IMG/VR virus record: IMGVR_UViG_3300037493_001706
Coordinates: 1 to 32,890 of that record
From: a virus
Length of the DNA: 32,890 nucleotides
Direction: 5' to 3' (one strand)
Below the pieces are notes generated by a model. That model was not told where the DNA came from. It did not search any database and saw only the letters and a program-made list of their open reading frames with translations. Positions 1 to 18,885 of the stretch are shown piece by piece. Position 1 is the first letter of the stretch, and every line of letters starts with the position of its first letter. The position numbers and the translations under genes are program-made.

Positions 1-41
1 CCGGCCACGATCCCGGCGTTGTTGCTAGGCATGACCATCAT
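1..41 (-). CDS. N-terminus of a gene cut by the left edge
   Basis: An ATG at 41-39 overlaps the TAA of queE as TAATG, with a GGAGG about nine bases upstream. The frame is open to the window edge and gives MMVMPSNNAGIVA. Tight coupling to queE suggests the product belongs to the same pathway. In phages that put 7-deazaguanines into DNA, the gene beside queC/queE is often dpdA, the DNA transglycosylase, and a short 'NN-G-V-G' stretch near the start is compatible with some such proteins from memory. Thirteen residues cannot establish this. The existence of the gene is well supported; its function is only a guess from position. Confidence 0.6.
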   Translation of the reverse strand, partial: MMVMPSNNAGIVA

Positions 42-637
42 TACTTGAACCCTCCAACCTTGTGCATCTGCATGGTGAGGCTCCACGGGTCGCCGACTTC
101 CTTCGCAAGATCGGCAGTGCTCGCAAGTGAGTGACCCCACAACGGGCAGAGGTAGTAGCACCAGAAGGAGGTAGATGCGACGAGTCGCTGCATCCGTTCT
201 CGGCTCAGGTCCCCCGTGTCGATAAGCACCAGTTCTTGCCCGAACGTCTGCTCAGGGATGTCCTGCTTCGGCGAGACGGTCAACCAGTCCCACTGAATCG
301 GGACGCGACGGATGCCGCTTGTCTGGAGGTGGACGTAGAGACCACGCTTGCGCGCTAGCTTCACCAGTTCTTGCAAGCCATCACCTTGATCGGTTGGTTC
401 GCCTCCAGTGATGTGAAGCCAGCCGCTTCGGCCAACACTTGCAAGAGCACGTTCCACGACTGCTTCGACCTCGACCTCAGCAGCACCGCGCCTCGTCAGC
501 GCATCTGGTTCATCGCACTCCTTGCGGATGGGGCATGAAGCAACGGAACACCCGGCGAAGCGTACGAAGTACTGCCTCGTGCCGATCAGGTGTCCGGTGC
601 CTTGGTAGCTCGTGAACTCATCGCGAACGAAGATCAT
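41..637 (-). CDS. queE: QueE-like 7-carboxy-7-deazaguanine synthase (radical SAM)
   Basis: The 198-residue product belongs to the radical SAM enzymes that turn CPH4 into 7-carboxy-7-deazaguanine, the step before QueC. Visible marks are three N-terminal cysteines (C30, C35, C41) for a 4Fe-4S cluster, the GGEP motif at 78-81 that contacts SAM, LQTSG at about 104-108 and a following SPK. The cysteine spacing C-x4-C-x5-C differs from the usual radical SAM CX3CX2C and from other QueE variants. The ATG at 637 overlaps the queC stop as ATGA and has a strong AAGGAGG site, so the start is secure. Pairing with queC argues for preQ0 synthesis. No queD or folE is seen, so CPH4 would have to come from the host or from genes outside the window. 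Confidence 0.85.
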   Translation of the reverse strand: MIFVRDEFTSYQGTGHLIGTRQYFVRFAGCSVASCPIRKECDEPDALTRRGAAEVEVEAVVERALASVGRSGWLHITGGEPTDQGDGLQELVKLARKRGLYVHLQTSGIRRVPIQWDWLTVSPKQDIPEQTFGQELVLIDTGDLSRERMQRLVASTSFWCYYLCPLWGHSLASTADLAKEVGDPWSLTMQMHKVGGFK

Positions 638-1185
638 ATTCCTGCCTCCTTCCTAGAAACGCATGGGCGACAGTTCCCGCACGGCTGGTCTCCGCCTTCG
701 TAGCACGACCAAGTGTCCTCGTATGGGACGTTACAACTGCGACCGATCTTGACCACCTGTCTCCTCGTCAGTTCAAGATATGGGGCGATCAGGGTGACTG
801 GCCGATCCCCAGCAAGCTCCATCACCTTCCTCGCAGCATCGACAAACTCTCGGCGGCAGTCTTGGAACGTGTCGAAGTCATCCTTGGTAGCGGCGAATCC
901 AACCGACCTCAAGTCGTAGCGGATCGCGTAGACGGTAGCGACCGACAGAAACACGAGGTTGCGAGCTGGAAAGACGTTGTGGAGCCCCGGTTCGCTCAAG
1001 AACGAGTGGACAGTGACAATATCCAGAGGCGTTCCCGTTCGCTCGCACAGTAGTTTTGCGTGCTCCAGTTCCTTCCTGTGCTTCTGACCGTAGTCGAAAG
1101 CAATGGCACGCGCGAACTGGACATTCCTATACTGGTAGAGCAGCGTTGCCGAGTCTGCTCCTCCGCTGACCATGATGAGCATCAT
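634..1185 (-). CDS. queC: QueC, 7-cyano-7-deazaguanine (preQ0) synthase
   Basis: QueC uses ATP and ammonia to convert 7-carboxy-7-deazaguanine to preQ0. The protein has the N-type PP-loop SGGADS at residues 7-12 and a C-terminal zinc site with C161, C169, C172 and C175 in the QueC arrangement C-Y-x-G-G...C-G-x-C-x-x-C. At 183 residues it is shorter than the roughly 220-230 of bacterial QueC, but both signature regions are present. The ATG at 1185 has GGAGG about ten bases upstream and lies three bases after the stop of the 92-residue gene. Its own stop overlaps queE. In phages this pair usually supplies preQ0 for DNA modification; supply of queuosine precursor for tRNA is the alternative. Confidence 0.9.
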   Translation of the reverse strand: MMLIMVSGGADSATLLYQYRNVQFARAIAFDYGQKHRKELEHAKLLCERTGTPLDIVTVHSFLSEPGLHNVFPARNLVFLSVATVYAIRYDLRSVGFAATKDDFDTFQDCRREFVDAARKVMELAGDRPVTLIAPYLELTRRQVVKIGRSCNVPYEDTWSCYEGGDQPCGNCRPCVSRKEAGI

Positions 1186-1188
1186 CTC

Positions 1189-1467
1189 TCAGTTCCTCCC
1201 GTAGATGGCTTGTGCCAGTTCTTCGATCTTAGACAGCATGGTTGCCATCTGTGCGCGTGTGGTGTCGATGCGTTCGCGGATCTCGATGATGCAGCGATGC
1301 ACGTTTGCCTCGCTCGACTTGGACGATAGGCCGTTGAACGTCACGGTCTTGGCGATGAGATCCATGTTGCCCTTGAGATCCTTGAGGGTCTTGGGATCAT
1401 GTACCCAGTTCTCGTTGACGGCGGCGACTATCTCTTGCGCCTGCTTGTTGAGTTCGTCTTCGCTCAT
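1189..1467 (-). CDS. Small helical protein of unknown function
   Basis: This 92-residue protein is not recognised. It is charged and predicted by eye to be almost wholly helical, with a C-terminal stretch (about 60-90) rich in Glu, Arg, Leu and Ile that could form a coiled coil. It has no signal peptide, membrane segment or cysteine pair. Its ATG at 1467 overlaps the MazG stop as ATGA and it ends three bases before queC, so it is co-translated between the pyrophosphohydrolase and the preQ0 genes. A regulatory or partner role in nucleotide modification is possible from position alone. Confidence 0.6.
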   Translation of the reverse strand: MSEDELNKQAQEIVAAVNENWVHDPKTLKDLKGNMDLIAKTVTFNGLSSKSSEANVHRCIIEIRERIDTTRAQMATMLSKIEELAQAIYGRN

Positions 1468-1793
1468 GCCCCATCCCCCTCCTCATGCCGCTGCCCGTGG
1501 AACCCGTTGGGGTAACGCTTGGCGAGCTTGTCCGCGTTGTGCTGTGCGATGTCTTCCAAGTGGAACCCCATCGTGTCGGCTACTGCGGTGAGATACCACA
1601 GCACATCTCCGAGTTCGTCCTTGATCTTGTCCAGATCCAGCGGCTTGCCGTGGAACAGGTGCTTCTTCACCGGCTCTGTCACTTCGCCGACTTCGCCAGC
1701 GAGTCCCATCAGGAAGTTGCACATCTGCTCGCGCCACGATGTTTTCATGTTCATCGTTCGCTGCACTGCTTCTTCGTAGTCTTGGAAGTTCAT
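1464..1793 (-). CDS. MazG-like nucleoside triphosphate pyrophosphohydrolase
   Basis: The 109-residue protein has the all-alpha NTP-PPase signature: E34 and E37 in GEVGEVTE and E60 and D63 in KDELGDVLWYL, the four acidic side chains that bind magnesium in MazG-type enzymes. The C-terminal KLAKRYPNGF is also typical of the single-domain phage forms. Such enzymes hydrolyse (d)NTPs to monophosphate and pyrophosphate, cleaning the pool of unwanted nucleotides. I chose the ATG at 1793, not an upstream in-frame start at 1826, because it forms an ATGA overlap with the preceding stop and has GGAG upstream. Position beside preQ0 genes is consistent with control of normal or modified nucleotides, but the substrate is not visible from sequence. 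Confidence 0.85.
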   Translation of the reverse strand: MNFQDYEEAVQRTMNMKTSWREQMCNFLMGLAGEVGEVTEPVKKHLFHGKPLDLDKIKDELGDVLWYLTAVADTMGFHLEDIAQHNADKLAKRYPNGFHGQRHEEGDGA

Positions 1794-2569
1794 GCGTCTT
1801 CGGTTTCTCCATCCATGCAGTCGCATGGGATCTGTGTTGATTCAGGAAACAGTTTGCCTTGGGCCTTGTCAGCTTTGACCAAGTTCTCCCACTTGTAGTT
1901 GCGACCAAGGCCAACAACCGTGTGCGCCACCGCGTTGCGTTCCAGTGCGATAGCCCTAGCGAACAGATCAGGGTGCTCTCGCTCCAACGCGAAGATCTCG
2001 CTCTTGCGCATCGCGGGGCAGAAGAAGCACGAAGACTTGCCGGGTGGTGGAAGCCCGACTCGCTTGATCGCGGCCACGCAATCCTCGCGATCCCAGTTCC
2101 ACTCCACTAGCGGGTATCGGTAGCGGTATCGCTTGTCCTCGGTCAGCACTGCACGGTGCCGCTCGCCAGCGTCGATACCGATGCACCGCTCGACCTTGCC
2201 GCCTTCCGCCCATACCGCCTTCGACTTCTCGTGCGCGGCGCAGAACTTGTCCATCGGGTATCGCTTCCACTTCTGGGAGCAGCCCTTGAACCCGTAGGCA
2301 AGCGAAGGAAGCTCCTTCCGCTTAAGGCTCATGTCCTCCAAGCTGCTGTATTGCGAGGTGTCAGCGTAGGTGACCACCTTGAACTCGCACGACGGCAGTT
2401 CCTTCGCCATCCAGTCGCGGAACGTATCCACGAACTTGTAGGTCTTTGGCTTCTCTGCGCCAGTGTCGGCAAACATAGTAAGGTCTGGTGGAGTTTGCTT
2501 CTCCATCAGACCGATCACCAAGGCGGCGCTGTTGACGCCACCTCCAAAGCTAACGACTCTGAAGTTCAC
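1790..2569 (-). CDS. PP-loop ATPase of the PAPS reductase/DndC-like family
   Basis: The 259-residue protein begins with a PP-loop (SFGGGVNS, residues 7-14), followed by FADTGAEKP and a conserved C97-S-x-K-W-K. C181 and C184 lie in SCFFCP. These are marks of the phosphoadenosine-phosphosulfate-reductase-like family that includes DndC, whose members adenylate a substrate and often hold an iron-sulfur cluster. It lacks the reductase features needed to call a true sulfate-assimilation enzyme. The GTG at 2569 overlaps the dnaC-like stop as GTGA. Such genes are common in phages and generally unassigned. Two PP-loop enzymes (this one and QueC) in one operon make a nucleic-acid modification role plausible, but that is inference. 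Confidence 0.8.
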   Translation of the reverse strand: MNFRVVSFGGGVNSAALVIGLMEKQTPPDLTMFADTGAEKPKTYKFVDTFRDWMAKELPSCEFKVVTYADTSQYSSLEDMSLKRKELPSLAYGFKGCSQKWKRYPMDKFCAAHEKSKAVWAEGGKVERCIGIDAGERHRAVLTEDKRYRYRYPLVEWNWDREDCVAAIKRVGLPPPGKSSCFFCPAMRKSEIFALEREHPDLFARAIALERNAVAHTVVGLGRNYKWENLVKADKAQGKLFPESTQIPCDCMDGETEDA

Positions 2570-3417
2570 TCCTCGTTCTCCTCTCTCTTGGTTTCGCGCT
2601 TGGCGTTGCGCTGACTGGCCCAGTTGAACTCAAATGCGCGACCGCCATTCTCGCGGATTCGATCTGTGAGAGCTTCGCCGATGAGTTTTTGGAACTCGGC
2701 CTTGCTCATGTTACTGATGAGAATCGTGGACTTGAACTCGTTGTATCGGCAGTTGAGCACATGGAACAACTGCTGCGTCGAGTAGGTGGTGTCCGAGTTG
2801 CGGCCCATCTCGTCGATCACGAGTAGGTCAGGCAGGATGAACACAGCGAGAGCCACGGTCTCGGTCTCGGTGGCGTTCGGGTTGTAGGTGGACTTCACCC
2901 GTGCCAGGAGGTCGATCGCGGTGGTGTATTTGCCGGTGCCGCCCTTCTCCAGAACGTGGCGCAGGATGCCGACCGCGAGGTGAGTCTTGCCGGTGCCGGG
3001 TGATCCCAGGAACACGGCAGACCGTCCACGTTCCAGGTTGTCCCCGATCGAGTTGCAGAAGTCGCGAGCCCAGTTCCAGATGAGGTTCTGGGCGTCCATC
3101 CCGTGCTGCCAGTTCCACATGCTCGACTCGGTGTAGCGAGCCGGGATGGTGGCGTCCGCCATGGCGGCGCTGATGGCGAGATCCTTGCTCGACCGCCCTT
3201 CACGGACGCGAGCGTGCGTCTCGTCCGCCTCCTGCTGCCAGATGGCATCGCACTTCGGGCAGTTCGCCCGGTGCGGCTTCAAGATCCAGTGCTTGGGGTT
3301 GACCTTCTTGATCCGGTCCACCGTCTCGGACTTGTGGACCCAAACGTCCGCGCTGAACTGGCCGTGGTCGGGACAAGTTCCCGACTCGCGTGCTACAACT
3401 TCGAATGTTCCTTGCAT
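2566..3417 (-). CDS. DnaC-like helicase loader (AAA+ ATPase)
   Basis: The 283-residue protein has an N-terminal cysteine/histidine module (C15, H18, C53, C56) and a C-terminal AAA+ domain. The latter shows Walker A GSPGTGKT (138-145), Walker B LLVIDEMG (198-205), a sensor-1 Asn in LISNM (about 236) and an arginine-finger-like DRIREN (252-257). DnaC proteins load the replicative helicase onto the origin. The zinc-binding N-terminus fits phage loaders rather than IstB, and no transposase is nearby. It lies directly downstream of the O-like initiator, the same order as lambda O-P. A 78-base untranslated spacer separates the two genes, the longest in this operon. The ATG at 3417 has GAGAGG upstream. 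Confidence 0.88.
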   Translation of the reverse strand: MQGTFEVVARESGTCPDHGQFSADVWVHKSETVDRIKKVNPKHWILKPHRANCPKCDAIWQQEADETHARVREGRSSKDLAISAAMADATIPARYTESSMWNWQHGMDAQNLIWNWARDFCNSIGDNLERGRSAVFLGSPGTGKTHLAVGILRHVLEKGGTGKYTTAIDLLARVKSTYNPNATETETVALAVFILPDLLVIDEMGRNSDTTYSTQQLFHVLNCRYNEFKSTILISNMSKAEFQKLIGEALTDRIRENGGRAFEFNWASQRNAKRETKREENEE

Positions 3418-11739: not shown

Positions 11740-14700
11740 TCACTGCTTGGAGTCCTTGGATGCTGCGCCAGTGATGGTTCCTCGGATCGCATCCCACGGA
11801 CCAGTCGGTTCCACACGGTCGGTTGCAACGTCCGTCCAGTAGATGAACGGCTTGGCGACAGCGTCGAGCGGGATCTTGAACCAGATCGAAAAGAAGGTAG
11901 CCGCATCGCTGATGGTCTTGCCCGATGGGTCGGTGAAGGTCTTGCCCGTGATGGTTTTGCCAGCGAACGTAGCCGCGCGTTCCAACGCGAAGATGCTGGG
12001 CGCAGAGCCGATGCGATCGTCATACGGCTTGTCGTTCAGCCGGTTGATGACACCGACCATCAGCGGACCCGCGTAGGGGATCGTGCCCGCCGTGCCGGTC
12101 AACGGTGCCGCAACCAAGGCGTCGAACCAGATGTCCGAGTAGCCATCCTCATCATCATCGTCGAACAGTGTGCCCTTGACGAAGGAGATGATCGCCGTGC
12201 CTACCGCGAACGGGATCATCATCGACCACAGATACATGTACGCAGCCTTGGCACCGCCGACCTTCCAACCATACTGCTCGATGTCGCCCTTGCCCTTCCA
12301 GTAGCCGTTGTTGAGGAGCATGACGAAGTAGTTCTGGAACTGCGTGAACCACTGGTGGAGAGCCGTGCCAGCCTCGTAAGCCGAGATCGACTCTGGGTTG
12401 AGCGCGCCTTGCGTCCGTCGCACCGTGCTTCCAGCCCTAGCCACCGCTTCCGCATCCGCATCCTCCTCGGACATGGCCGCGACCGATGGATCGGACATCG
12501 CCTTGTCGTATGCAGCCATCCACACCGTGGCGTCGATGATGTTCTGCACGAACGCTTGCGGCTTGTAACCCTTGGTCGCCGCCAAGTCCTGCAACTTGGT
12601 CATCCAGTTCGGGTCCTCAAACACGGCGCGGGTGTCAGCCGAGATGTCGAACATCTGGTTCTCAAACCGCTGGCGCATACCTTCGTCGGCTTCCGCGATC
12701 TTGCCGAACACATCACCGAAGTTGGTCATCACATGGTGCAGAGCCTTCGCCATGCGGTCGGCACCGACTTCGGGAACAGCAACGGCAAGCCCCGTGGACT
12801 GTCCGATGATGTTTCCGTAGTTGCCGACCATGCGAGTCAAGCCAACCGACTGCTTGATTTGCCGCGCCCACTTGTCGATGCCGGGGTACGAGCTAGGCGT
12901 GCTGGTGGATTGGAACGCGATGCGTTGCAGCCACTTGTCAATGGCGTCCGTGAACAGCGTCTCGTCGTAACGCTCCAGCGCCCCCATCACATTCTGGTGC
13001 TTCAGCAGTTTCATCACCTCGCCCAGCTTCGGCTGGATGTTGATAAAGCGGATCTGCTCGCCCAGCACAGACGGGATCTTCCGCAAGTCCATCAGCAGCG
13101 GATAGACCGCACCCGTGCGCTTCTTGCCTGCACCAGACTTCACGCGAGCGAGCGCAACACGGTGAGTCTTCAGGGTCTCTTGGTTCAGGTCGCGGAACTT
13201 TGCGTCCACGTTGCGCTCAGGGTCTGCACGCAGCGGGATGTAACCGCCCTTGAACGTGCCGATCGGGGTCACGATGTCCAAGTGCTCGATCGCTTCTGGC
13301 GGATGCCCGAACACCTTGCGCCATGCTTGGAAGTAGGGCTTCTGCAACTTGGCGAACAGCGCGAACAGCTTCTCTACAGCCTTGAAGTCCGCTGCCGTGA
13401 GCGTGCCGTTGAGCACGAGTTCGTTGATCGTCTCCTGCCATGCACTGTCATCAAGCGTGCCGTCATCGCGAACAGCACCCCATGGCGTGCGGTCGCTCGT
13501 GCCAGCGCGAAGGAGCTTGTCCTTGCCGGTGACGCTGCCGCTGTAGAGGATCGCGTGCAGCAGTTCCCACTTGTCGGCGAACTTGTATTTCAGCCGTGGC
13601 GCGTCGATGTCCTTCTGGCCAGTGTCGCGAATCGCCTTGAAGATCGCGTTGAACTCGGCGTTGAACTCGGCCCACTGCTTCCGGTAGGCAACCGACGCAT
13701 CGTTCAGCGGTCGCCACACCATCTTCGTCCATGGACCGGGCGTGCCACCGTCAAGGTAGAGGAACAGGTTCTCCAATCGCGTGACATGCGCGCGATGGCC
13801 CATGAACATGCCCATCCTCTTGCGAGCCTCAGTGCGCCTCGCATTCACGTTGTCGGCGACTTCTGGCGCACCACGGTCCACCAGCTTCTGCTCAAGCAGC
13901 GGTGCGGCTTCATCGACCAGCATCTGCTTGCCGTCGATCTCCACCTTCTTCATGTCCGACGCTTCTTGCCAGATGGCTTCGATAGCGTCCGTGGCGTTCT
14001 TGAACTCGTCCAGCGTGATCGACTTGTAGACTTGCTTCTGCGAGCGAGTCAGCTTGCCGCCGATGACGTTGCGCCGTGCGCGGGCTTCTTCCACGACGTT
14101 CGCGGCAACAGCGAGGATCTCCGCTAGCTCGCGGTGCATTTCCTCGTCGTAGGTCTTGATGTTCTCGATCTTGGCCTTGGCATCGACGAACTTGGCAGAC
14201 CCAGCGATCTCGTAGAGACCAGCGAGTGCGCGTGCGGCAAGTGCGGTCTCGTAGTGCCGACCCTTGCCCAGATCCTTGTCGCCGACCTTGCCCATCTTCT
14301 TGATGGACGCAATCCGCTTCTCGATCTCCTTCTTCTCCTGCGTAGCAAGGCGCGCAAGCTCGGTTTGCAGCAACTCCTGCCGCTTGTATTGCAGAGCCTC
14401 AAACGTGCCGTTGGGCTTGCCCATCGCCTTCTCTGCCATGCGGCGAGCGCGAACAGCAGCGGCGTCGAACTTGCGAACGTCGATGTCGCCGACGTTCATG
14501 CCGTTGAGGATCGTGATGGCAGCGATACGCGCAGCATCGCGCAGCACCCCCAGCGGCATCATCATCTTGCTGAGTGCCCGGAACTCCATCGCGATCATGT
14601 CAGCGCGAAGGTCGTTGTGGATCGCAGACGCGATCGTCTCCTCCACCTTCTGCGGATCAGACAGTTCGCTGAACTCGGCTTCGATACGGCGGTCGGTGAC

Positions 14701-17700
14701 TTCCTCGATCTTCTCCTCGATCGACGGGGATGCGATGATCTGGCGGATCATGGTCGCTGCGTCCTTGAAGCCGAAGGACTCGGCCACTTCGCGCGGGTCG
14801 AGACCGACCGTGGCGACCATGCCTTCCAGCTTGTCGAGAACCTGAGTCGCGACCTTGGGCATACCCAAGTCGATGCGGGCCGAAAGGTCCTTGATCCGGC
14901 TCTGAAGGGCAGGGATGCGAGCCTTCAGATCCTGCATCGAGGCTGCGCGGCTTTCCTTGAACGTCGAGTAGAGCGTCTTGACTGTGTTGCGCTCCTTCCT
15001 TGCCTCCTCGACAACTCGCTTGTTGTCATCAATCGCGTTCTCGCGCTTGACGTTGTAGTGCTCGCGATTGAACTGCTTGCTCCGGCGCTGCTTGTTGTAT
15101 GCCTCGGTCTCAGCGTCCCTGAACTCCTTCTTCTTCCGGCTCTCGACTAGCTGGAAAGTCTCAGGTTGCTTGAACAGACGAAGCGATTGGTCGAACTCGT
15201 TGCGACCGATCATCAACGGGTAGTCGGTCTCGCTCTCCTTTAGAGCCTCTAGCTTGTATCCCTTGGGGAGCAGCTTCTGGTGCTTCTTGACATCTTCAGG
15301 AGTCGCCTTCTTGGTTCCAGAAGAACCCCACTCCTTGATCTTGGCGTCGATGTCATCCGGCTCCTTCAGCCTCGGAGGAACCGGCTTCTTTGCACCCTTC
15401 TCCTTCTCGTTGATGGCAGCGATGTCCTTCTTGAACTGCGCATCCTCATCAGTCTGCGACTTCTCGATCTCATCGAGGTTCTTCTTCGCAGACACAAGGT
15501 CTTCAACAGCCTTGTCGCGCGCCTCGATGGCACTCTCGACAGACTTCGGGATCTGCTGCTGCTCAAGTTCGCCGACGTTCTGACCGAAGCCAACCATCGA
15601 CTCGATGGCGTCGATCTGCAACTTGTGAACGCCAGTGACGATCTTGCCTTCGCCCTTCTGGTTGGCGATGACGCGGACTCGCTTTGACTCCTTCTGCGTC
15701 CCGTCCGTGTAGAGGATCTTGCCGGTCAGCAGGTAGTTGATCGCTTGGTAGACCGGGCGGCTGCGAACTTCCCTCGCGGTCTCCTCGCGCAGAGCCTTGC
15801 GAACTTCCTGCTTCTGCCGGTCGATCTTGCTGCGGATCTCGTCAGCCTTTCGCTTGTAGTAGCCGACCGTGGCGAGCGAGTGCTGGTCAAGCGTGTTCAA
15901 CGCCTTCTCAAACTGCGACTGCGATACCTCCTGCAACTCGCTCCACTGCGCGTCCGACATGCCATCGGGCTTCGCCTCAAACATCGGCTGGAGCTTCCGA
16001 GCGGCATACGCCTCCTCGATCATCCGCTCGCTGGCCAGCATGTTGTCGAACCAACGGCGAATCTCTGGCGTGAGGATCGGCAAGTCCTCCAGCGGCAGTC
16101 CTTGCTTCGCAATCTCCTTGCGATACTGCTCGTTCATGCTGCCACGGATGTCCTTGTAGACATCCAAGATCCAGCGGCGCATGTTGTTGAACAGCTTCGC
16201 CAAGCCCTTGGTCGGTGCCTTGCCTTCCGCCCAGTAGATGGGGGCGTTGTAGGCGATCTGCTCGTAACGCTTGACGCGCTCTGGCTTCGACAGCGCGTTC
16301 CATTCGTCCATCGACTTCAAGCCGAAGAAGTCAAGCAACGTCTGCGCATCCTGCTTTGCGAAGGCGGGGGCGTTGGGATCTTGAGCCAGCGCCAACGTGA
16401 CATCGGTCCAGAAGTGCGAGAGTTCGTGCATGAACTCTGGCAGCTTTGCCGACTTCGTCAGCGTGATCTTGTGTTCGCCGACTGAGTATTGGGCGGTGGA
16501 GCCTGCTTTAAGCGTGCTCGGAGAACGCGACATCTGAGGGTCGCCAGCCTGGTTGATGACTTCACCAGTCGCATCGAATCCAAGTGACTCGTAAAACTTG
16601 ACGAGACCACTTCGGCTCGTGGCGTTGTCCAGTGGCGATGCGTCAAGCGTAAGGGTTACGTTTTGTGCATCTGCTTGGGCAACAAGTGCAGACATTGCAG
16701 CCCTGGCGCTACCGGTCCCCCTCTTGGCTTTCGTCGTACGAACGCTAGAGACCTTGATAGATCCAGACCGTGCGTCAAGAACAATCGTCGTGTCCCCGAC
16801 CTTGACGGTCCTTATTGCGTTGCCTTCGGAAACATATGACAGGTCAAACAACGGCTGAATGTTGGGTCCGGATTCTCCGATCGCATTCAGACCCACACCC
16901 GTAACATTCATCTCCCCCACCCCAATCTTGAGCGGGAACTTGGCGTAGACATCCTCGGGCGTGATGCGCGTCTTGCCGAACAGCGCCTGCGCTTCCTCGG
17001 GGCTCTGGTTGACGCGAGCCGCGAAGTTCTGGAACCAAGTCTTGGCGGCAAGGGTTGCACCGCGCACCTTGTCATCGGCGTCGAACACGCCGCTGCCCTT
17101 CACTTGCTCGTAGATCGACTTGCCAACGCGGGCTGCGGATTCGGCAAAGTCCTTGTCCTGCATCGCCATCTCGCCGTGAGCGGCGATGTTCTGCTGGAAC
17201 TGGCTGATGACTTCCTTCGCCTCAAACTGCGACATCGCGTCCACGGCGGTCTTGATGTGCGGCAGGATGGCTTCCTGGAAGCCTGTGCGGGCCGTCCTTG
17301 CCACGAAGTCGCCAGCAGGGATCTCGACTAGCCCACCGCTCTGGAGCGCCGCAGTCAGCCTTGCAGCCAGCCCAGGGATCACCTTGTCGGCGGACTCTGG
17401 CGTCTCGCCCAGTGCGTTCAGCACCTCGCCAAGTTTGTCGGGTGCGACGTAGAACGTGCCTGCACCGCTGGCGTCCGCCATGTCCTGCACGGTGTCCGCT
17501 GCGACATCGGGGTTGCGCTTCTTCGTAGCGGTCGCGTCTACCGCCTTGACCAGATTGCCAAGCGTCTGGAACGCAGCATCGGCACGCTTCGCCTTCGCCA
17601 AGTCCACGCGAAGCGCGAGACCGGGAGCGACAGCGCTCAGGAGACCGGCTTGGTAAAGCGTCTCCTCAAACATGCTGGCGAGCGAGTCCGACAGGTCATC

Positions 17701-18885
17701 CGCCTTCGACGGGTCGGCGAACTCGCGCAGCAAGACATCGGGCGAATACTGCTTCGCGATCTTGCGGCCAAGGTGTTCGACCACGGTCTGGCTGGCTTCG
17801 GTCAAACCTTCTGCGCCGAGCGTCTGCGCGTATCGCGTCAAGCCGGTCTTGAGCGCGCTGCGGGTGGTCAGTTGGGTGAAGGCTTCCGAGACACCTTCCT
17901 TGGTCAGTCGCTTGGCGATTGTGTCGCTGATGAGCCGCTTCGCCAACGGCTTCACGAGGAAGGACGTAGCGGTGCCCATGGACGCCGTTTCCAGCGCAGA
18001 GCCGATGATGCCAACGCCGAAGCTCGCGTAGTAGGCGGCGTCCTCGTCGTATCCTTCGTCCACCATCTGGCGGAACGCCGAGCCCGACATCGAAGTCTGC
18101 CAGCGGACGAATGCTTCCGAAGTGAAGCCGATGCCGAAGCCGGTGATGAACGAGGCAGGGACGGTAGCGACTGCGGCGGGCAACGTGGCAATGCCTGCCG
18201 AAGTCGCGATGCTCGTCATGGTCGCCGATGTCACGCCGAGCGCGATACCAGTCTTGATCGCAGACTCGGATACGACGCCCATCTGCCCAAGCGACCGTGC
18301 AGCGCCACCGAAGAAGCCTCCCGAAGTCATCGGCAAGTCTTCTTGCGCGGTGCGCAGCGACTCAAGTTGCGCCTCCTCCTGCGCTGTGGCGGTCTTCTGC
18401 GCCTTCTTCCACTCAAGCTCGCCAGCCTTCTGCGTCACCGCGCCAGCCTGGAACTGCTTCGTGATGTTCTCCACGAAGCCAAGGTTCGCAACGTCATCAT
18501 GCGTGATGCGCGCGAACTCCAGGTCCAGGAGCTTGCCAGCGAGCACCGGGTTGCTCCTGGTCATGTTCATCTCAGCGACCTTGCGCCGCTTGGCCCATTC
18601 GCGCATGACCGCGATGTTCTTCTCAACCAAGTCTGGCGTCTGCCCGATCTCGCCTGCGATACGCACGGCTTCCGCACGGAGGTTCGCGTCCTTCTTCACC
18701 GCTAGGCGGAAGGTGTTGAGCATCTGCTGCTCGCGCGCCGCGTCCATCTTGGCGAACACGGCATCGTCTTCTGCGTCGATCTGCGGGACCGACTGACGCA
18801 TCCGCTGCGCAGCCATGGGATCGCCAGGGCTCGGCATCTGGAACGGGAGCGGATCGCCACCTTGATTGGTGTCTAGGCTGGTCAT
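11740..18885 (-). CDS. Giant 2381-residue internal virion (polyvalent-type) protein
   Basis: The last structural gene of the late operon, after two smaller internal-protein genes. The order of segments is: a polar N-terminus (1-195); hydrophobic Gly/Ala/Thr segments (about 205-330) that could insert in membrane; a GNAT-like domain (about 680-785) with K-R-G-T-G at 721-725 and FYESLGF; a metallopeptidase-like domain with HELSH at 820-824 and a later Glu (E875 in YEQIAYN); a long charged coiled-coil region (about 990-1480); a helical domain with YLDGGTPGPW near 1705; and C-terminal hydrophobic segments near 2225-2300. This matches phage large polyvalent proteins ejected with the DNA. The ATG overlaps the previous stop (ATGA). 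Enzyme activities are inferred from motifs only. Confidence 0.8.
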   Translation of the reverse strand: MTSLDTNQGGDPLPFQMPSPGDPMAAQRMRQSVPQIDAEDDAVFAKMDAAREQQMLNTFRLAVKKDANLRAEAVRIAGEIGQTPDLVEKNIAVMREWAKRRKVAEMNMTRSNPVLAGKLLDLEFARITHDDVANLGFVENITKQFQAGAVTQKAGELEWKKAQKTATAQEEAQLESLRTAQEDLPMTSGGFFGGAARSLGQMGVVSESAIKTGIALGVTSATMTSIATSAGIATLPAAVATVPASFITGFGIGFTSEAFVRWQTSMSGSAFRQMVDEGYDEDAAYYASFGVGIIGSALETASMGTATSFLVKPLAKRLISDTIAKRLTKEGVSEAFTQLTTRSALKTGLTRYAQTLGAEGLTEASQTVVEHLGRKIAKQYSPDVLLREFADPSKADDLSDSLASMFEETLYQAGLLSAVAPGLALRVDLAKAKRADAAFQTLGNLVKAVDATATKKRNPDVAADTVQDMADASGAGTFYVAPDKLGEVLNALGETPESADKVIPGLAARLTAALQSGGLVEIPAGDFVARTARTGFQEAILPHIKTAVDAMSQFEAKEVISQFQQNIAAHGEMAMQDKDFAESAARVGKSIYEQVKGSGVFDADDKVRGATLAAKTWFQNFAARVNQSPEEAQALFGKTRITPEDVYAKFPLKIGVGEMNVTGVGLNAIGESGPNIQPLFDLSYVSEGNAIRTVKVGDTTIVLDARSGSIKVSSVRTTKAKRGTGSARAAMSALVAQADAQNVTLTLDASPLDNATSRSGLVKFYESLGFDATGEVINQAGDPQMSRSPSTLKAGSTAQYSVGEHKITLTKSAKLPEFMHELSHFWTDVTLALAQDPNAPAFAKQDAQTLLDFFGLKSMDEWNALSKPERVKRYEQIAYNAPIYWAEGKAPTKGLAKLFNNMRRWILDVYKDIRGSMNEQYRKEIAKQGLPLEDLPILTPEIRRWFDNMLASERMIEEAYAARKLQPMFEAKPDGMSDAQWSELQEVSQSQFEKALNTLDQHSLATVGYYKRKADEIRSKIDRQKQEVRKALREETAREVRSRPVYQAINYLLTGKILYTDGTQKESKRVRVIANQKGEGKIVTGVHKLQIDAIESMVGFGQNVGELEQQQIPKSVESAIEARDKAVEDLVSAKKNLDEIEKSQTDEDAQFKKDIAAINEKEKGAKKPVPPRLKEPDDIDAKIKEWGSSGTKKATPEDVKKHQKLLPKGYKLEALKESETDYPLMIGRNEFDQSLRLFKQPETFQLVESRKKKEFRDAETEAYNKQRRSKQFNREHYNVKRENAIDDNKRVVEEARKERNTVKTLYSTFKESRAASMQDLKARIPALQSRIKDLSARIDLGMPKVATQVLDKLEGMVATVGLDPREVAESFGFKDAATMIRQIIASPSIEEKIEEVTDRRIEAEFSELSDPQKVEETIASAIHNDLRADMIAMEFRALSKMMMPLGVLRDAARIAAITILNGMNVGDIDVRKFDAAAVRARRMAEKAMGKPNGTFEALQYKRQELLQTELARLATQEKKEIEKRIASIKKMGKVGDKDLGKGRHYETALAARALAGLYEIAGSAKFVDAKAKIENIKTYDEEMHRELAEILAVAANVVEEARARRNVIGGKLTRSQKQVYKSITLDEFKNATDAIEAIWQEASDMKKVEIDGKQMLVDEAAPLLEQKLVDRGAPEVADNVNARRTEARKRMGMFMGHRAHVTRLENLFLYLDGGTPGPWTKMVWRPLNDASVAYRKQWAEFNAEFNAIFKAIRDTGQKDIDAPRLKYKFADKWELLHAILYSGSVTGKDKLLRAGTSDRTPWGAVRDDGTLDDSAWQETINELVLNGTLTAADFKAVEKLFALFAKLQKPYFQAWRKVFGHPPEAIEHLDIVTPIGTFKGGYIPLRADPERNVDAKFRDLNQETLKTHRVALARVKSGAGKKRTGAVYPLLMDLRKIPSVLGEQIRFINIQPKLGEVMKLLKHQNVMGALERYDETLFTDAIDKWLQRIAFQSTSTPSSYPGIDKWARQIKQSVGLTRMVGNYGNIIGQSTGLAVAVPEVGADRMAKALHHVMTNFGDVFGKIAEADEGMRQRFENQMFDISADTRAVFEDPNWMTKLQDLAATKGYKPQAFVQNIIDATVWMAAYDKAMSDPSVAAMSEEDADAEAVARAGSTVRRTQGALNPESISAYEAGTALHQWFTQFQNYFVMLLNNGYWKGKGDIEQYGWKVGGAKAAYMYLWSMMIPFAVGTAIISFVKGTLFDDDDEDGYSDIWFDALVAAPLTGTAGTIPYAGPLMVGVINRLNDKPYDDRIGSAPSIFALERAATFAGKTITGKTFTDPSGKTISDAATFFSIWFKIPLDAVAKPFIYWTDVATDRVEPTGPWDAIRGTITGAASKDSKQ

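Follow-up and report, generated by a model that had tools for sequence, protein, structure and literature searches.

A minus-strand gene run at the left edge of a linear virus record raises the question of what its last gene, of which 13 codons are visible, encodes, and of what that gene and the two preQ0 genes before it do for the phage. The record is a fragment, and the whole of its 32,890 bases is here called the window. In order, the run comprises a replication initiator, a DnaC-like loader, a PAPS-reductase-like PP-loop protein, MazG, a 92-aa protein, queC, queE and the truncated gene; its features from the loader onwards are as follows.

2566..3417, minus strand: DnaC-like helicase loader, farther upstream in the run (phrog_50, 9.4e-55)
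1790..2569, minus strand: PAPS-reductase/SspD-like PP-loop protein (phrog_424, 6e-37; PADLOC SspD, 1.4e-20)
1464..1826, minus strand: MazG-like nucleotide pyrophosphohydrolase (PF03819, 2.7e-14)
1189..1467, minus strand: 92-aa protein between queC and mazG (no family matched)
634..1185, minus strand: queC (7-cyano-7-deazaguanine synthase), 183 aa (PF06508 and motifs)
41..637, minus strand: queE-like radical SAM enzyme (7-carboxy-7-deazaguanine synthase), 198 aa (phrog_2076, TIGR04508 and motifs)
1..41, minus strand: putative short DpdA-like (TGT-fold) transglycosylase gene, 13 codons, cut by the edge, MMVMPSNNAGIVA (N-terminal family match)

The initial annotation described queC, queE and a third, edge-cut gene as joined by ATGA and TAATG overlaps, and both the coordinates and the overlaps are confirmed: the stop codon of queC shares an ATGA at 634-637 with the start codon of queE, that of queE shares a TAATG at 43-39 with the start of the third gene, and a strong ribosome-binding site, GGAGGG, lies ahead of the third start. 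We consider it likely that what we see is the 3' part of a BPP-1-like early operon whose last genes are queC, queE and a short dpdA, that preQ0 is made and swapped into the phage DNA, and that restriction is partly blocked as a result. In the proposed pathway the host QueD would yield CPH4, which the phage QueE would convert to CDG and the phage QueC in turn to preQ0; the short DpdA would then replace guanine in the phage DNA with preQ0, and the resulting dPreQ0 marks would probably stop some of the restriction enzymes of the host. In Cellulophaga phage phiST, too, a MazG is part of the preQ0 cluster.

Up to the edge, the third frame reads MMVMPSNNAGIVA. Scored on a position matrix built from 29 distinct N-termini of a family of short viral proteins (MMVMPSNNSGIQI and similar), with the Met omitted from the score, this peptide reaches 30.9 bits, whereas the highest score among 15,907 background peptides, methionine-started 13-mers taken from other frames, is 5.7; 10 of the 13 residues of the window peptide are identical to those of the nearest family member. 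A scan for relatives of QueE found the viral record L026, whose QueE is 64% identical to that of the window and which encodes, just ahead of its own queC-queE, a complete family member of 218 aa with a GTG start (MIVMPTNNTGIVVGYLAG). Complete homologues adjoin queC-queE in L029, L031 and L047 as well. It had been suggested at the outset that the truncated gene may be of DpdA type; the 13-residue match and the complete copy beside queC-queE in L026, together with the TGT fold and DpdA motifs described below, bear this out, and the gene almost certainly belongs, as judged from its N-terminus and its relatives, to this short DpdA-like family. The family's proposed catalytic motifs come from relatives, 13 residues being all that is visible of the window's own enzyme, and a search with the exact 30-mer of the left edge for an overlapping contig returned no match.

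Further scans brought the number of viral loci with the short family to over 80, while a scan of bacterial genomes for it returned one 4.4-kb contig only. Its proteins are about 205 aa long. In PHROGs the family is phrog_15826, labelled 'unknown function', and no model of Pfam or NCBIfam matches it; some mycobacteriophage annotators label it 'DpdA-like tRNA-guanine transglycosylase', and phrog_887, 'queuine tRNA-ribosyltransferase', matches one member at 2.3e-4. In Escherichia phage phiG7 (L042:6932-7524), as also in SHIN8, the short-family gene is split over two overlapping frames and sits beside a DNA polymerase gene; phiG7, a Seuratvirus, has a complete preQ0 set and a classical DpdA as well.

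An AlphaFold model of the L026 protein, built from a 27-sequence alignment, has a mean pLDDT of 90.6, and its top 12 matches in the PDB are all TGTs, human and archaeal enzymes included (E 5.9e-5 to 1.8e-4). VIA-align returned 50 rows, TGTs throughout, at Z 14.3-14.7, with 202-204 of the 218 residues aligned at 3.3-3.5 A. An earlier model (9 sequences, pLDDT 76) had not told TGTs from generic barrels, matching both about equally well, a question that the model from the 27-sequence alignment settles, and the short family is thus predicted to have a TGT-type barrel fold. In the L026 model and in the family alignment, the protein ends right after the barrel. Searching the PDB by sequence with the short family found nothing relevant, and hhalign against E. 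coli TGT alone was uninformative for the short family and likewise for classical DpdA.

Against classical phage DpdA, hhalign gave a probability of 88-91%, with 91% in the comparison in which six unrelated control profiles stayed below 1%. The alignment pairs LDNG with DSGAF, PDV with LDxIGD, VGG with GG and CDGTGW with DSSxW (short family first), and sets the histidine of HVGRVN opposite a conserved DpdA histidine. D45, D84, G133-G134, H154 and D176 are aligned with or lie next to the DpdA motifs and are invariant across 27 short-family members. The active-site motifs of the L026 member follow the order of the TGT/DpdA superfamily, namely a first Asp (DNG), a second Asp (PD), GG and a last Asp, and from this order we take D45, D84, GG133-134 and D176 to be the counterparts of the TGT catalytic residues. 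H154 probably corresponds, as judged from the alignment, to the conserved histidine at position 196 of classical DpdA, which is absent from DpdA2 (PMC6884629). BLASTP of the short family against phiG7 DpdA yielded nothing useful (E 0.009, 26 residues only). The profile and motif match, the weak BLASTP and a length that stops at the end of the barrel together mark the family as a divergent short relative of DpdA and not a classical member, and the initial assignment is refined to this extent: the transglycosylase is of a short divergent lineage rather than a classical phage DpdA. A candidate transglycosylase of phiST (phrog_20335) was tried as a further relative and rejected, there being no profile similarity. 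In phiST, CGPG_00065 (L204:5600-6379), a 259-aa protein with no assigned function, is encoded near a MazG-FolE-QueE-QueD cluster, and a phiST protein of equal length matched the short DpdA weakly in fold; CGPG_00065 is a candidate transglycosylase of another type.

The fold by itself does not separate DNA from tRNA as the substrate, and action on tRNA is the main rival to the reading given above. In that case QueE and QueC would raise the level of preQ0 and the short TGT-like enzyme would act on host tRNA, boosting queuosine. The TGT fold is common to tRNA enzymes, and a similar boost to Q has been proposed for 48 phages that have preQ0/G+ genes without a DpdA (PMC6884629). However, it is with phage DpdA that the short-family profile aligns, the protein stops after the barrel at about 205 aa where E. 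coli TGT has 375 aa, and in phiG7 and R29Z the neighbours of the short gene are a DNA polymerase gene and a dpdA, classical or putative. Nor does QueF (PF14489), for preQ1, match anywhere in the window's 32,890 bases, although the host could supply preQ1. We regard the tRNA alternative as distinctly improbable and infer that the substrate is DNA.

The two enzymes upstream of the transglycosylase are those that would make its substrate. QueC scores 149.5 bits with PF06508, against a cut-off of 22, and 142.3 bits with the equivalog TIGR00364, which is 8 bits under the curated cut-off of 150.3; its P-loop is SGGADS, its four C-terminal cysteines (SCYEGGDQPCGNCRPC) are of the zinc-site type, and it consists of one 183-aa PP-loop domain without an amidotransferase domain. 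QueE matches phrog_2076 (QueE-like) at 2.4e-15 and TIGR04508 at 1.5e-19, the latter score of 70.7 bits being the top among all NCBIfam models and below the curated cut-off of 240. It has a TGGEP motif, and its three cysteines follow a CX4CX5C pattern (codons 30-42, at about 510-550), an unusual spacing that is one residue longer than in its nearest relatives, which have CX3CX5C. Identity to the QueE proteins of L026, L031 and L047 is 61-64%, and the window's QueC is about 30-32% identical to theirs.

This gene content resembles that of Escherichia phage CAjan and Mycobacterium phage Rosebush, whose dPreQ0 systems combine DpdA with FolE, QueD, QueE and QueC: the window likewise has QueC, QueE and a DpdA-type transglycosylase without an amidotransferase, and for this reason dPreQ0 is the predicted base (PMC6884629). 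The inserted base would accordingly be preQ0. Unlike those phages, the window has no detectable FolE or QueD, and the short enzyme, at about 205 aa against about 306-329 aa, is a distant relative of classical DpdA. In CAjan, dpdA is essential for the dPreQ0 mark and for restriction resistance, and its removal abolishes both (PMC6884629); by analogy, the phage studied here may have modified DNA and be protected from restriction.

A base beyond plain preQ0 is also conceivable, formed either by some further phage or host enzyme, with dADG as one example, or by a step added by the SspD/PAPS-like PP-loop protein. The gene for this orphan PAPS-reductase/SspD-like protein (1790-2569) is a conserved neighbour in L026 and L027 and lies close to the module both here and in L026, and in L053 a PP-loop gene lies directly 3' of the short dpdA. 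These positions would suit such a role, and Rosebush, a phage with the preQ0 set, also has a small amount of dADG (PMC6884629). Against this, phrog_424 is a general phage family, L027 retains the PP-loop gene with a mere relic of the module, and neither a Gat domain fused to QueC nor QueF/QueF-L, marks of an archaeosine-type dG+ module, was found in the window. It is possible that the PP-loop protein adds a second DNA modification step, but further processing of the base is, on the whole, unlikely.

Whether the short family is tied to preQ0 synthesis was judged from its gene neighbourhoods. Of 80 short-family loci, 42 have queD, queC or queC-queE as a preQ0 gene at a distance of at most 700 bp and on the same strand; when the loci are clustered at 90% identity, this holds for 17 of 31 clusters. 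About half of the loci are without such a gene nearby. Of the paired loci, 25 have queD downstream, 10 have queC upstream, five have queC-queE downstream and two are arranged otherwise; the farther flanks (at least 2 kb away) hold only three preQ0 genes in 395 kb. Because the pairing takes several arrangements and involves three enzymes of one pathway, a functional link between the short family and preQ0 synthesis is very likely. L026, L031 and L047 carry the short dpdA, queC and queE together, as does the window, but in the order dpdA-queC-queE where the window has queC-queE-dpdA. Mycobacterium phage StevieRay and its relatives have the same short family by sequence (phrog_15826); in StevieRay, unlike the window's lineage, in which the short dpdA is joined with queC and queE, there is no annotated preQ0 gene within 5 kb.

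The pathway as found is incomplete, and the claim that folE and queD are absent holds for the window, where neither PF01227 nor PF01242 matches anywhere in the 32,890 bases. Their absence from the whole genome is unproven because the record is a linear fragment, and the missing 7 kb or so could hold one. The relatives show the same pattern: in records of 42-61 kb the preQ0 genes present are queD alone, queC alone or the pair of queC and queE, while other records have none; folE turned up in none of the 15 records checked, and neither queD nor folE was found in L026, L031 and L047 (19-46 kb), absences that are provisional because any IMG/VR record may be a fragment. Since folE and queD were not found in the window and the relatives checked carry partial preQ0 sets, the host probably supplies CPH4, in keeping with what was first proposed for this phage. 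Hutinet et al. described phages with DpdA and a preQ0 set, with DpdA alone and with preQ0 genes without DpdA, partial sets being exceptional (PMC6884629). We suggest, tentatively and at slightly less than even confidence, that the short family may be a separate minimal lineage of DNA transglycosylases, distinct from the described DpdA subfamilies, in which preQ0 synthesis is split with the host, the phages contributing just one or two of the enzymes (queD, queC or queC-queE). Classical phage DpdA was the partner in the profile comparison behind this placement; a 2023 paper in Nucleic Acids Research reportedly defined DpdA3 and DpdA4.

The phage itself is a BPP-1-like podovirus, 'BPP-1-like' being a name that we ourselves assume for this type. 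Limnohabitans phage DC33, ctEw122, zth2-2 and ctQRb9, which are podoviruses of 39-40 kb, have major capsid proteins 66-69% identical to its own and have RecE, RecT and tail genes in common with it, but not the module; from their sizes, about 80% of the present phage's genome is in the window, with the missing part of the module expected in the stretch from the left edge to the terminase genes. By analogy with DC33, our guess is that the host is a freshwater betaproteobacterium. DC33, ctEw122 and zth2-2 are of the same podovirus type (capsid protein about 69% identical) but lack the module, a profile search finding in them no queC, queE, short dpdA or PAPS-like gene. DC33 (L118, PQ492659) is filed under Inoviridae despite its 39-kb genome and capsid and tail genes like those of the window. 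Elsewhere in the window, 11740-18885 encodes a giant protein of 2381 aa (phrog_9880, of unknown function in PHROGs).

Loss of the module may be seen in L027, where dpdA codons 1-50 are fused in frame to the last 57 or so codons of queE (L027:9851-10168); this relic sits before the replication initiator, unlike the module of L026, and is either a natural deletion or an assembly error. Together with a stop inside the dpdA of the relative L030, it could be read as a sign that the module is degenerating and non-functional in the present phage too. In the window, however, the frames are open, the overlaps and ribosome-binding sites intact and the QueC and QueE motifs kept, and we consider such decay highly improbable here.

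The most likely role of the module, then, is to make preQ0 and place it in phage DNA, and the module is probably a known type of anti-restriction protection in an unusually compact, host-dependent form. What the analysis adds is the assignment of the truncated gene, a short transglycosylase family tied to preQ0 genes, and the pattern of partial pathways. If this reading is true, an enzyme of about 205 residues adds many environmental phages to those predicted to have 7-deazaguanine DNA. The partial gene sets predict a dependence on the host, such that the modification should vanish in hosts without queD, and so small a transglycosylase would be easier to study and easier to use in DNA labelling.
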